From: Comamonas sp.
GTDB lineage: Bacteria > Pseudomonadota > Gammaproteobacteria > Burkholderiales > Burkholderiaceae_C
Direction: 5' to 3'
Length of the DNA stretch: 64,000 bases
NCBI GenBank assembly: GCA_028690035.1
Contig: JAQVCA010000005.1
Coordinates: 179,309 to 243,308, forward strand
A program made the position numbers and the translations under genes. Position 1 is the stretch's first letter, and the number at the start of each line of letters is the position of its first letter. The notes under the pieces were generated by a model, which saw nothing but the letters and a program-made list of their open reading frames with translations, was not told the origin of the DNA and searched no databases. Below, in pieces: positions 53,331 to 58,777 of the stretch.

Positions 53331-54785
53331 TCACCCGGCCACACGACAAATCTGCAACATGTTCGTGCCGCCGGGCTGGCCCATGGGCTCGCCGCAGGTG
53401 ATGGCATACACATCGCCCGGCTGCACGATGGCGCGCTCGCGCAGGTGGTTTTCTGCTTGCGCCAAGGCTTGGTCGCGCTCGGCGCTGGTGTCCATGAGCA
53501 GCGGGCTGACGTTGCGGTACAGCGCCATCTTGCGCTGCGTGCTGATTTTGGGCGTGAGCGCATAAATCGGAATGTGGATGCGGTGGCGGCTCATCCACAG
53601 CGCGGTCGAGCCGCTGTCGGTCATGGCCACAATGGCCTTGGCACCCAGGTGGTGCGCCGTAAACAAGGCCCCCAGCGCAATGGATTGGTCGATGCGCGTC
53701 AGCGCACGCGGCTGGCCCAGCGCTGTTTCGGCGCCAATATCCTCGGCCGCCTCGGCAGCGGCGCAGATGTAGGCCATCTCGCGCACCGTTTCCAGCGGGT
53801 ACTTGCCCACGGCAGTTTCGGCACTGAGCATCACCGCATCCGTGCCATCGAGCACGGCATTGGCCACATCACTCACTTCCGCGCGCGTGGGCAGCGCGTT
53901 GGTGATCATGCTTTCCATCATCTGCGTGGCGGTGATGACCAGCTTGTCCATCTGGCGCGCCATGCGGATCATTTTTTTCTGCAGCGCAGGCACGGCAGCG
54001 TTGCCCACCTCCACCGCCAAGTCGCCGCGCGCGACCATGATGCCGTCCGAGACGCGCAGGATGTCTTCCAGATGGGGGATGGCCTCGGCGCGCTCCATCT
54101 TGGCAATCAAGCCCGGGCGATGGCCCGTGCCCGCCGCAGCCACCGTACACAGCTGGCGCGCCATTTCCATGTCGGTGGCGTTTTTCGGAAAGCTCACGGC
54201 CACATAGTCGGCACCCAGCTGCATGGCGGTTTTGATGTCCTCCATGTCCTTGGCCGTCAGCGCTGGGGCCGTGAGTCCCCCGCCTTGCTTGTTGATGCCC
54301 TTGTTGTTGGACAGCTCACCGCCCACCACCACCTGGGTGTGTACCGCTTCGCCCAGCACGCGCTGCACCCGCAGCACGATCAGGCCGTCGTTGAGCAGCA
54401 GCACATCGCCTGCGCGCACATCGCGCGGCAGTTCTTTGTAATCGAGGCCCACGCCGTCGATGTCACCCGGCGCACTGCGCGCGGCATCCAGCACAAAGCT
54501 GGTGCCCACCTGCAAATCGACCTTGCCTTGCGCGAACTTGCCCACGCGAATCTTGGGCCCCTGCAAGTCCGCCATGATGGCCACCTCGCGTCCCGCTTGG
54601 CGCGAAGCCTCGCGCACGGCCTCAGCACGCGCTATATGGTCTTGGGCCGAGCCATGGCTGAAGTTCAGGCGCACCACGTTCACGCCCGTGGCAATCATCT
54701 GCGCCAGCATGGCCACGTCGCTGGAGGCTGGGCCTAAGGTGGCCACGATTTTGGTGGCGCGGCGAATGTAGGTGGTGGGGGGCAT
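53331..54785 (-). CDS. pyk: Pyruvate kinase
   Basis: RRATKIVATLGPASSD; VVRLNFSHGSAQDH; IMVARGDLAVEVG; ITATQMMESMITNALPTRAEVSDVANAVLDGTDAVMLSAETAVGKYP. Confidence 0.98.
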   Translation of the reverse strand: MPPTTYIRRATKIVATLGPASSDVAMLAQMIATGVNVVRLNFSHGSAQDHIARAEAVREASRQAGREVAIMADLQGPKIRVGKFAQGKVDLQVGTSFVLDAARSAPGDIDGVGLDYKELPRDVRAGDVLLLNDGLIVLRVQRVLGEAVHTQVVVGGELSNNKGINKQGGGLTAPALTAKDMEDIKTAMQLGADYVAVSFPKNATDMEMARQLCTVAAAGTGHRPGLIAKMERAEAIPHLEDILRVSDGIMVARGDLAVEVGNAAVPALQKKMIRMARQMDKLVITATQMMESMITNALPTRAEVSDVANAVLDGTDAVMLSAETAVGKYPLETVREMAYICAAAEAAEDIGAETALGQPRALTRIDQSIALGALFTAHHLGAKAIVAMTDSGSTALWMSRHRIHIPIYALTPKISTQRKMALYRNVSPLLMDTSAERDQALAQAENHLRERAIVQPGDVYAITCGEPMGQPGGTNMLQICRVAG

Positions 54786-54811: not shown

Positions 54812-55492
54812 TCACTGGTACACGTTCGCACCAAAAATCTTTTGCAGTTGCTCTTGGATAGGCTGCTGTGTATCAGCGGTCAACCCACCAAAAATAGCCT
54901 GTCCTTGGCTGGCCTTAGCCCACAGCTGGCCCACAGCGCGCTTTTCCAACTCATACGGAGTGTGAGCAAGGTGAGCGCCCTTGTACTCCAGCACAGCCAC
55001 ACGACCATCGGTCAGTTCGGCCACAAAGTCGGCATAGAAACGCCCGCGTGATGTAAACAGCACGATGGCCGTGCGCCCCCAGTCGGGCGGTGCGATCTGC
55101 GCCACCTCGTCCAGCACGCACACCTGCAGCGCCTCGCCATAGGCTGCCGTCAGCGCCGCGCGGTAGAGGTGGCCGGGCGTTTGCAGGGCCTTGAGCGTTT
55201 GCTGGCGAATGGCGTCGCTGGGCACCAGCCACACCGCCACCGGCGCATCCACGTTGCACCACGCGCGCGCCAGCAGGGGCACGGCGTGCGCTGCCATCAC
55301 CGTTTTGCCACCGCCCGTGGGAATGCGCAGGCACACGCAAGGCACGTCCGGGCCAAATGCATCGGCGCGGTAGGGGCGACCCACCAGCGCACCAAAAGCC
55401 TGCGCCGGGCCTTGGGTTTGCGCAGCGCGGGCAAAAGCCGTCAGGGTGTTGAGGGCGGTTTGCTGGTAGGACTTGAGGGTGATTCGAAGCAT
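54812..55492 (-). pseudogene. Internally deleted type III restriction Res-like helicase/nuclease (226 aa; P-loop N-terminus joined in frame to PD-(D/E)xK-like C-terminus)
   Basis: SYQQTALNTLTAFARAAQT...CLRIPTGGGKTVMAAHAVPLLARAW (motif I) then YGEALQVCVLDEVAQIAPPDWGRTAIVL joined to FTSRGRFYADFVAELTDGRVAVLEYKGAHLAHTPYELEKRAVGQLWAKAS; the intervening helicase motifs (DEAD box, motif VI) are absent. Confidence 0.7.
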
Positions 55493-55591
55493 GGTGGGCC
55501 ACTTAATTGGCGGAATGATTGGCGATGCAAAACCTATCCCGCCAATGCAAGTATTTGATTTGCCGGGGTTTTATTTTTTCGCGGGATAAAT

Positions 55592-57331
55592 TCACTGCGT
55601 TTCTTTGGTGCTCATTGGCGCATCCAAAGCCCAAAGTGCTCCCCTGGTGGGCCTGCCGATATTGCGAATGGCCCCCTGCCGCGCCATGTCTGAGAGCAGT
55701 TCTTTGATGTATTTCTTGCGCTCGGTAGCGCTTGCAATCCACAGAGAAAGCTTGGGCAACAGCAACTCGTCAATCTTGGCGCGCGGCTGCGGTGCCATGG
55801 CCAGCAGTCTGCACACCGCATCCTTGTAGTCTTGGGCAACAGGGCCTTTTTGATTGACGTAGGCGACTTCCGTGCCTGTGGCAATGGCTACCGCCGCCGA
55901 GATGCGCACCTTTTGTCCGCGTCCTTCTACCAAACCCTTGCCTCGCAAATGTTGCAACTGACCTGCTGGCGGCTGGCGGCCTTTTTGAATCTGATCGAGT
56001 AGCACCGCTTCCGCCAGGCTCAGATCAGTGTGCGTCATCAACGCGCTGACATAGCGTTCATCCAGCGTGCGGCCATGGATGGTGACGGTGACAGACGCTG
56101 GATGTCCATCTATGGCGTAGTCGGGTAAAGGAAAAAAGCGCTCCCGCTGCTTGCGGAACATGCCCTTGACCCCTCGGTTCATCGTCTCCATCAGATCCAG
56201 CTCCACCATCGCGTTGGCCAGACACGCATTGCGATAACGCTGCTCGGGCTGAAGTGCGCGCAAAACCTTCTCTACCGACCCTGGCAGAAACTCCCCGTAA
56301 TTGAAAAACCGCAGGGTATCCGGGCCTTCGGTGATCAGGATGCGCCCGCCCTGGGTGTAGTCCTGGTGAGCCACACAGTTATGCAGCGCTTCGCGTATGA
56401 CCCAATCGTCGTAATTGGGCACGTTCAGCGGTGCCACCTGGCGGGGTGGCAAAACATTGACCTCAATGATGCGGATGCGGGCAATCAGCGCGTCGATGGC
56501 CAGCACCAGGGGGAGGTCGAAGTGCTGGTGCGTCACATAGTCATCGCGATGGTCTACCAACTGCCAACTGATGCGCGGCGTGGGGCCACCTAACAGCGTG
56601 CTGGCTTGCTGCTTACCCAGCAGCACCAACGCTGCCCGCGTTAAACCGCCGCTGACGGCAAGGCGCAGGGTGTGCAAAAACTCTGCATCTGTCTGCAGGT
56701 GCATCTGGGCCACGATGTCCGGCTTGGCGCCATAACGGCGTGCATACAACTCGCGTGCGCGTGCAATGGCCTGCGCTGAAAGCAAGGCCCAGTCTTGCGT
56801 GACTACCGTTGCCGACCAATCATGCAGGGCCGACTGCGCGCGCAGTGCGTCGAGCTTGTGCAGAGGCAAGGCCCCCAACTTTTCTCCGGCACGACCCCAG
56901 TAATGTCCCTTGCATGCCACCGGAACACCCCGTGGTGCAGCTGGTACTCGCCATAGCAGCACCCGGGCGGGCGAGCCATCCGCCTTGGTCACGTGCAGTA
57001 TGTAAGGAGCCTCCAAGACCGTGGGTGGGGAGGTCTGCGCTGCAATAGATTCCTTGACGCGATTGACCTCCTCCATCGATTGCGCAAACTGCGTACCAGT
57101 GGCGGGACGCAACCCGCTGACCGGATCAATTTTGTTGTCGATGCCCATCACCAGCCAGCCCTCTTCGCGCCGGTAAAGGTTGGCCTCATTGGCAAGGGCA
57201 GACACATACTGCGCCAGTTGGTCAAAACTGAAGGAATGTTCTGCGCGTTTGAACTCCAGCCACTCCGTCTCGGTGGGCATGCGGCGCAAACCATCCAGAA
57301 AATCCTGGGTAACTTCGTTCATCTTGTTCAC
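55592..57331 (-). CDS. AlbA_2 (Schlafen-type) DNA-binding domain plus HATPase-like putative transcriptional regulator, RecG-like annotation class
   Basis: TETEWLEFKRAEHSFSFDQLAQYVSALANEANL...GWLVMGID; DWVIREALHNCVAHQDYTQGGRILITEGPDTLRFFNYGEFLPGSVEKVLR; C-terminal winged-helix-like region; GTG start overlaps upstream TGA. Confidence 0.85.
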   Translation of the reverse strand: MNKMNEVTQDFLDGLRRMPTETEWLEFKRAEHSFSFDQLAQYVSALANEANLYRREEGWLVMGIDNKIDPVSGLRPATGTQFAQSMEEVNRVKESIAAQTSPPTVLEAPYILHVTKADGSPARVLLWRVPAAPRGVPVACKGHYWGRAGEKLGALPLHKLDALRAQSALHDWSATVVTQDWALLSAQAIARARELYARRYGAKPDIVAQMHLQTDAEFLHTLRLAVSGGLTRAALVLLGKQQASTLLGGPTPRISWQLVDHRDDYVTHQHFDLPLVLAIDALIARIRIIEVNVLPPRQVAPLNVPNYDDWVIREALHNCVAHQDYTQGGRILITEGPDTLRFFNYGEFLPGSVEKVLRALQPEQRYRNACLANAMVELDLMETMNRGVKGMFRKQRERFFPLPDYAIDGHPASVTVTIHGRTLDERYVSALMTHTDLSLAEAVLLDQIQKGRQPPAGQLQHLRGKGLVEGRGQKVRISAAVAIATGTEVAYVNQKGPVAQDYKDAVCRLLAMAPQPRAKIDELLLPKLSLWIASATERKKYIKELLSDMARQGAIRNIGRPTRGALWALDAPMSTKETQ

Positions 57332-57393
57332 CGCGCCTTCACGTCATAGGTGGTGAAAGCGTGGGCGCGGTTGAGCCAATCCAAAGTAGGCAT
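57328..57393 (-). pseudogene. 21-codon remnant of a site-specific DNA methyltransferase (Mod-like) gene
   Basis: ATG CCT ACT TTG GAT TGG CTC AAC CGC GCC CAC GCT TTC ACC ACC TAT GAC GTG AAG GCG CGG TGA = MPTLDWLNRAHAFTTYDVKAR*; N-terminus resembles adenine methylases of mod-AlbA_2-res clusters (from memory). Confidence 0.5.
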
Positions 57394-57394
57394 C

Positions 57395-58777
57395 TCAGGC
57401 GACCTCATCGCGCATCAGCGCTTCAATCTCAGCCATTTCCACGGGCACGTCGCGCGTGGTCAAGAGGCAGCCGCTTTCGGTGACGACGGCATCGTCTTCG
57501 ATGCGGATGCCCAGGTGGTGGAAGTGCTCGGGCACGCCAGCGGCGGGGCGCACGTACAGGCCTGGTTCAATCGTCAGGCACATGCCCGGTTGCAGGATGC
57601 GGCTGGGGGGCAGGGTGCTGCCAGGCTCTGGCGCAGCGCCCGGCTCGGTGTAGCTGCCGCAGTCGTGCACGTCCATGCCCAGCCAGTGGCCGGTGCGGTG
57701 CATGTAGAACTGAAAGTAAGCGCGGTTGGCGATCACGTCCTGGGCGCTGCCGTGCTGCTGGGCGTTGAGCAGGCCCAGATCCAGCAGGCCCTGGGCCAGC
57801 ACGGCCACGCAGGCATCGTGCGGTTCGCTGAAGCGCGCACCGGCGCGGGTGGCGGCGATGGCGGCTTTTTGGCTTTCCAGCACCAGCTGGTACAGATCGC
57901 GCTGCGGCCCGGTAAAGACGCCATTGGCCGGGAAGGTGCGCGTAATGTCGGCGGCGTAGCCGTCCAGCTCGCAGCCCGCGTCGATCAACACCAAATCACC
58001 GGCGCGAATCGGTGTGCTGCCTGCGCGGTAATGCAGCACGCAGGCGTTGGCGCCCCCGGCAACGATGCTGGGATAGGCCTCGCTTTGTGCGCCGTGCTGG
58101 CGGAAGGTGTGCAGCAGCTCCGCATCCAGGTGGTATTCGCGCAGGTCCTGGCCTTCGCGCAGCATGCGGGCGCTGGTGCGCATGGCGCGGATATGCCCTT
58201 GGGCGCTGATCTGCGCAGCGCGCTGCATGGTGGCCAGCTCGTGCGCGTCTTTGACCAGGCGCATTTCATCGAGCAGGAGGCACAGATCGCCCTGGCGCGT
58301 GGGGCATTGCACGCCGCTGCGCACGCGCTGGCGCACGTTGCCCAGCCAGCTTTCCACGCGCGCGGCCAGGCCGTCGTGCGTGGCAAATGGCCACCAGACG
58401 CAGTGCTGGTTGTCCAGCAGCGCTGGCAGCAGCGTATCCAGCTCGGTGCTGGCGTGCGCGGCCTGCACGCCCAAGGCGGCAGGTGCGGCCCCGGGGCCCA
58501 GGCGGTAGCCGTCCCAGATTTCGCGCTCCAGGTCTTTGGGCTGGCAAAACAAGGTGGCCTGGCCGTTGGCGTGCAGCACCAAGGTGGCGTGGGGTTCGGT
58601 AAAGCCGGTCAGGTAAAAAAAATAGCTGTCGTGGCGGTAGTTGTGTACGTTGTCGCGGTTGCGCGCACGCTCGGGCGCGGTGGGCACGATGGCAATGCCG
58701 CCAGCGCCCAGCTGTGCGGCCAGGCGGGCACGGCGCTGGGCATAGACGGTCAGGGGCAGGGGTGGGGTGTAGGTCAT
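57395..58777 (-). CDS. pepP: Xaa-Pro aminopeptidase (M24B)
   Basis: LVLIDAGCELDGYAADITRTFPANGVFTGPQRDLYQLVLE; HRTGHWLGMDVHDCG; GMCLTIEPGLYV. Confidence 0.93.
   Translation of the reverse strand: MTYTPPLPLTVYAQRRARLAAQLGAGGIAIVPTAPERARNRDNVHNYRHDSYFFYLTGFTEPHATLVLHANGQATLFCQPKDLEREIWDGYRLGPGAAPAALGVQAAHASTELDTLLPALLDNQHCVWWPFATHDGLAARVESWLGNVRQRVRSGVQCPTRQGDLCLLLDEMRLVKDAHELATMQRAAQISAQGHIRAMRTSARMLREGQDLREYHLDAELLHTFRQHGAQSEAYPSIVAGGANACVLHYRAGSTPIRAGDLVLIDAGCELDGYAADITRTFPANGVFTGPQRDLYQLVLESQKAAIAATRAGARFSEPHDACVAVLAQGLLDLGLLNAQQHGSAQDVIANRAYFQFYMHRTGHWLGMDVHDCGSYTEPGAAPEPGSTLPPSRILQPGMCLTIEPGLYVRPAAGVPEHFHHLGIRIEDDAVVTESGCLLTTRDVPVEMAEIEALMRDEVA

Follow-up and report, generated by a model that had tools for sequence, protein, structure and literature searches.

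A functional type III restriction-modification (R-M) system combines a Mod protein carrying an N6/N4 methylase domain with a Res protein carrying helicase motifs I-VI and a C-terminal PD-(D/E)xK nuclease. In the known cases of type III decay, it is usually mod that is retained. In the decayed loci of Haemophilus and Neisseria (modA), res is inactivated while mod is kept for gene regulation, and an in-frame deletion of 250 aa has been reported in the gonococcal res (PMC2667262). R-M operons can also harbor accessory genes. PrrC is embedded in the type IC EcoprrI locus (PMC3506569, PMC12707154), and suicide-type genes have been noted in type I and III R-M loci (PMC3506569). In BREX loci, proteins that combine a Schlafen-family RNase, a minimal histidine kinase and a wHTH have been named backup suicidal effectors (PMC12839542). 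In the collection of papers that was searched, none was relevant to AlbA_2 or Schlafen together with type III restriction. The locus described here belongs to a known kind of system, in a decayed state, and is unusual in what was kept. Like the Haemophilus and Neisseria loci, it shows an inactivation of res, including by in-frame deletion; unlike them, it has also lost mod and retains the accessory gene only. This outcome, in which both core genes are lost and the accessory gene is kept, has arisen at least twice with different accessory genes.

The locus was studied in the window, that is, the whole 64-kb stretch of DNA under analysis, which comes from one assembly. The gap between pepP and pyk holds three minus-strand frames, namely a mod remnant, an AlbA_2/HATPase gene and a res remnant. 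The features are the following:

57395..58777, minus strand: pepP (aminopeptidase P), the upstream housekeeping flank (Pfam AMP_N and Peptidase_M24)
57328..57393, minus strand: mod remnant, frame 1, MPTLDWLNRAHAFTTYDVKAR followed by the stop, with ends shared with the Mods of loci L019-L023
55592..57331, minus strand: AlbA_2/HATPase gene, frame 2, 579 aa from GTG (Pfam and full-length identity to L019-L024)
56879..57271, minus strand: SLFN_AlbA_2 domain, residues 21-151 (Pfam)
56084..56350, minus strand: HATPase_c_4 (GHKL-type) domain, residues 328-416 (Pfam)
55506..55561, minus strand: conserved cis element before res (core and GCCAAT/ATTGGC inverted repeat)
54812..55492, minus strand: res remnant, frame 3, 226 aa (Pfam, PADLOC and alignment to full-length Res)
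53331..54785, minus strand: pyk (pyruvate kinase), the downstream housekeeping flank (Pfam PK and PK_C)

A single nucleotide separates the pepP stop from the first ATG, and 26 nt separate the Res stop from the pyk ATG. The last codons of pepP contain a GAGGT that may act as ribosome-binding site of the mod remnant. An initial annotation of this DNA gave the same three frames, with the same lengths and distances to pepP and pyk, and Pfam agrees with its naming of both flanks.

The same annotation had taken the first frame for the N-terminus of a Mod joined to its last few codons. Full-length Mods of relatives, which measure 540-578 aa, indeed align to both ends: those of L019-L023 start with MPTL(D/A)WLNR..AFTT.. 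and end with ..PYDVKAR and the stop, and the frame in the window divides at the joint into MPTLDWLNRAHAFTT and YDVKAR plus stop. Mod codons 1-15 (57393-57349) are joined in frame to the last six codons and the stop (57348-57328), and the 21 codons left hold no methylase domain. The third frame had been described as a Res N-terminus joined in frame to a C-terminus with the central helicase motifs missing, and residue-level alignment leads to the same description. Residues 1 to about 146 of Res (55492-55055) are joined in frame to its last 80 residues (55054-54815), the ORF tracking full-length Res up to just before the conserved VATIQSF and picking it up again at TSRGRFYADF. Motif I is retained (a GGGKT Walker A at residue 60), as are the D and ExK of the PD-(D/E)xK nuclease core (residues 153-171, YADF..LEYKG). 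The deletion took about 675 residues, with motifs II-VI and the N-terminal half of the nuclease domain among them; of the helicase and nuclease elements, just motif I and a portion of the nuclease core are left. Pfam ResIII matches the 226-aa protein partially, at the start of the family only, and PADLOC REase_III aligns to it in two separate stretches. When 401 genomes of the family were searched, both halves hit Res proteins about 900 aa long, at positions some 2 kb from each other. A homologue of the joined 226-aa form turned up in none of them, and this length is not maintained across genera; full-length relatives do align to both of its ends.

The mod and res genes were therefore each hit by one in-frame internal deletion, with joints at 57349/57348 and 55055/55054. 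The pattern is not due to chance, since each remnant matches full-length relatives at its start and at its end. As neither gene has kept its catalytic parts, the locus has no capacity for type III methylation or restriction. No microhomology or repeat is visible at the joints, although the nearest full-length relatives are too diverged for a base-level placement of the breakpoints. A collapse of repeats or mixed strains during assembly, concealing a real chromosome with full-length mod and res, could in principle produce such joints, and the evidence does come from one assembly of 22 contigs. However, the joints carry no repeat and both restore the frame, the genome holds no other copy of Res and no close Mod, and the assembly is 99.8% complete with 0.2% contamination. 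An artefact of this kind is very improbable.

Comparable collapses are found elsewhere in the family. In locus L113 of genome G194 (L113:5150-6781), located at the canonical site, only about the last 25 Mod codons are left; the cargo, a DUF3800 gene of 295 aa, is intact, and Res has been reduced to 157 aa by two in-frame internal deletions. This is an independent, parallel collapse of a mod-DUF3800-res locus. In locus L115 of genome G390 (L115:8261-8675, minus strand), Mod residues 1-58 are fused in frame to about the last 75 Res residues, and the start codon is CTG. No further clear collapsed allele was seen among the matches listed for a Mod search of the 401 family genomes. All five joints of the window, L113 and L115 are in frame, an outcome with a chance of 1 in 243 if frames are random and independent, in what is a small sample. 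In-frame deletions of res have a precedent in the gonococcal case of 250 aa (PMC2667262).

In all three loci, the nuclease core still has its catalytic D and ExK. Together with the five in-frame joints, this would suit a functional mini-Res, made of a Walker A part and a PD-(D/E)xK part and selected together with AlbA_2. Sequence conservation points in the same direction: among the sites at which 16 intact Res proteins never vary, the N part of the remnant departs from 0 of 62, and the C part, over its initial 55 residues, from 1 of 31. Such a protein would nevertheless have to work with one half of its nuclease domain and no motifs II-VI, and its C-terminal tail (the last 20 residues or so) has diverged. 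Moreover, the mini-forms are of unequal lengths (226, 157 and 134 aa), the ATG of L115 has been lost, and the joined 226-aa form is without homologue in the family. A functional mini-Res is thus improbable. The conservation of all 62 invariant N-part sites fits recent deletions as well as the maintenance of part of the product, and the 226-aa remnant would be a recent, non-functional relic.

The order mod-AlbA_2-res, which the initial annotation had put forward, was recovered in extant genomes. A scan of species genomes with AlbA_2 identified six loci, at 70-80% identity, with the same gene order (L019-L024), hosted by Comamonas sp. SCN 67-35, Acidovorax soli, another Acidovorax, two Giesbergeria and one Ottowia. 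In these loci, Mod lies upstream of AlbA_2 (complete in five, cut by the contig in L024) and a Res of about 900 aa lies downstream. The same order is present in about a dozen further Comamonadaceae and on Alphaproteobacterial plasmids (Phaeobacter, Sulfitobacter). The full-length Mod and Res proteins match the PADLOC type III MTase and REase models with E below 1e-190 (MTase_III PDLC03644, REase_III PDLC03650). By the homology of its remnant ends and by its gene order, which is that of the full-length mod-X-res operons, the locus in the window derives from a type III system. It differs from such a system in the absence of a catalytic Mod and of the Res helicase core, and in the extra AlbA_2 gene between mod and res. 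In one Giesbergeria locus, Res is frameshifted into 352 and 564 aa (L023:9786-12548), with Mod and AlbA_2 intact.

Examination of about 40 mod-res loci of the Comamonadaceae revealed that the gap between mod and res serves as a slot for variable cargo. It contains AlbA_2-HATPase (two classes), DUF3800, HTH with PIN_10, an addiction antitoxin with ParE, ParE alone, a zeta-like kinase, DUF2281 with PIN, DUF4160, or nothing, some of these cargo families being assigned by similarity to a Pfam-tested example. Genes of the toxin-antitoxin type (ParE, zeta-like, PIN) occupy the gap in L145, L148, L154, L158, L129 and L162. This slot, the second collapsed locus L113 and the GCCAAT/ATTGGC element described below extend what had initially been annotated.

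The middle gene encodes, as first annotated, an AlbA_2/HATPase protein. Pfam assigns it SLFN_AlbA_2 (PF04326, 6e-10, 40.1 bits for a curated cut-off of 25.3) and HATPase_c_4 (PF13749, 1.5e-9, 38.1 bits for a curated cut-off of 26). The protein thus looks related to the antiviral Schlafen proteins of animals. Its upstream GTG overlaps the mod stop; the ATG at 57322 (576 aa) is the likelier start compared with the GTG at 57331, because intact relatives have their ATG at the corresponding position, 5 nt downstream of the mod stop. The SLFN_AlbA_2 domain carries E21-x4-E26-x-K28 and D65, and an N-box-like E314-x3-N318-x3-H322 directly precedes the HATPase_c_4 domain. In rat SLFN13, the carboxylates E205/E210/D248 are spaced by 5 and 38 residues (PMC5862951); E21, E26 (5 apart) and D65 (39 further on) match them in spacing only, without structural superposition, and L024 has an E at position 65. 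An AlphaFold2 model built from seven sequences reached a pLDDT of 41 and was given no weight, and a PDB sequence search with the AlbA_2 profile and the Res remnant gave no useful match; the putative Schlafen-type active site therefore rests on the Pfam match and the motif. No relatives of AlbA_2 were found in viral contigs. Judged from its sequence, the protein may act as a backup RNase and/or a regulator. It resembles the BREX Schlafen effectors in having an SLFN_AlbA_2 domain followed by a HATPase domain and in adjoining a DNA-modification defence system, but it resides inside a type III mod-res operon. The resemblance with PrrC lies in the presence of an accessory gene in an R-M operon as a second defence line, a putative one in the case of AlbA_2. 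PrrC, however, is an ABC-HEPN tRNase masked by Hsd, whereas the protein of the window belongs to another domain family, in a type III context where the R-M partner is gone. The absence of this partner disfavors a strict PrrC-like masking in the window strain.

The cis element preceding res is composed of a core, AAATCAAnnACTTGC, at 55561-55547 and of GCCAAT/ATTGGC inverted-repeat arms at 55539-55546 and 55506-55513. In 14 loci of one AlbA_2 class, the AlbA_2-res gap contains 4-10 copies of the CCAAT/ATTGG half-sites against 0.3-0.6 expected, and loci with other cargo or none contain 0-1. The arms often form an inverted repeat that spans 38-43 nt, and their letters vary by locus yet still pair, as in ATTGGCGCA/TGCGCCAAT and ATTGGTGGA/TCCACCAAT; the pair of the window is ATTGGCGG/CCGCCAAT. 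This element is the densest GCCAAT cluster of the 64-kb window. The core also occurs with variant repeats in more distant AlbA_2 loci and in L129 (HTH-PIN cargo), so that the link with AlbA_2 is not strict and the association is correlative. The element is likely an operator or a leader structure. An RNA hairpin as its sole account is disfavored, the half-sites being present in many copies and in both orientations. Compared with dinucleotide shuffles, the single inverted repeat attains a modest per-locus significance (p 0.003-0.037 in 8/19 loci), and Rfam has no match on the locus.

AlbA_2 is, in accordance with the initial annotation, the sole intact gene of the module, with 70-81% identity over its full length to L019-L024, while mod and res are reduced to their ends. 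Its dN/dS is 0.07-0.14 against relatives (0.08-0.26 among intact alleles), which demonstrates that it evolved under purifying selection, even if these values cover mostly the time before the collapse, the nearest relative being about 80% identical. AlbA_2 may thus have stayed intact simply for want of time since the collapse. A plain decay still under way, in which the island is dead or dying and AlbA_2 has not yet been hit, is a serious contender, although its chances are put somewhat below even. Mod and Res make up about 70% of the intact module, and random deletions would strike them first; the tail of Res has diverged, its C part has a GC3 of 0.54 where relatives have 0.66-0.88, and other decaying alleles are known (the frameshifted Res of L023 and an AlbA_2 split by a stop in G331). 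This account is at odds with the strong constraint on AlbA_2, with the persistence of a dense cis element whose arms still pair, and with the cargo gene likewise spared in L113. It is considered probable that a type III R-M module lost restriction and modification and retained its Schlafen-like accessory AlbA_2, the mod remnant now serving as a leader coupled to it. Of the two options initially proposed, decay or retention for a separate role, the evidence favors a loss of R-M in which purifying selection maintained AlbA_2, whose separate role is one that we infer. A broader proposition, rather doubtful as a whole, is that the mod-res gap is a slot for independent defence or addiction modules, that AlbA_2 and its GCCAAT element form a self-contained unit which outlives R-M, and that in-frame collapses recur, leaving behind a coupled leader and a nuclease-domain mini-Res on which selection acts.

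The history of the locus can be approached by synteny, as the initial annotation had suggested. The nearest congener, G040 (PepP 92%), has an empty gap of about 42 nt between pepP and pyk. No AlbA_2 relative above 40% identity was found in the 53 other congeners (54 genus genomes), and no relative of this Res above 40% identity exists in the other genomes of the genus. Intact alleles occupy other sites, in most cases flanked by SHOCT/virion-core-like genes on one side and a spermidine-synthase-like gene on the other; of this downstream gene, the window genome has no close copy. The empty gap, the absence from congeners and the location of the intact alleles argue for an insertion in the window lineage, and the module is best read as a foreign insert. 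The pepP-pyk gap does not appear to be an R-M insertion hotspot of the genus, since the congeners inspected hold ordinary genes or nothing there. In G365, an intact mod-res pair lies between pyk and fba (L153:1891-11500), adjoining the insertion site of the window.

According to the favored scenario, a type III mod-AlbA_2-res module would have entered between pepP and pyk in the window lineage, and one in-frame internal deletion each in mod and res would then have removed modification and restriction. Two more type III-like loci are present in the genome, one on C14 and one on C3, and these systems would have made the collapsed locus dispensable. The 21-codon mod remnant would persist as a leader ORF coupling the translation of AlbA_2 to the pepP transcript, a role for which an in-frame deletion would be favored. 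AlbA_2 would be a Schlafen-like RNase and GHKL-ATPase accessory comparable to the BREX backup effectors. In intact loci, it would serve as a second defence line and/or regulate res through the repeat element, and in the window strain it would work alone. Two collapses with a spared cargo constitute a testable case that cargo genes in R-M operons may have a value of their own, as backup defence or addiction, and the window strain offers a natural setting for a Schlafen-like bacterial protein devoid of its R-M partner. Elsewhere in the same genome, a PADLOC PDC-S22 candidate defence gene is located between the two core genes of a type III-like R-M locus (L136:3851-10681).
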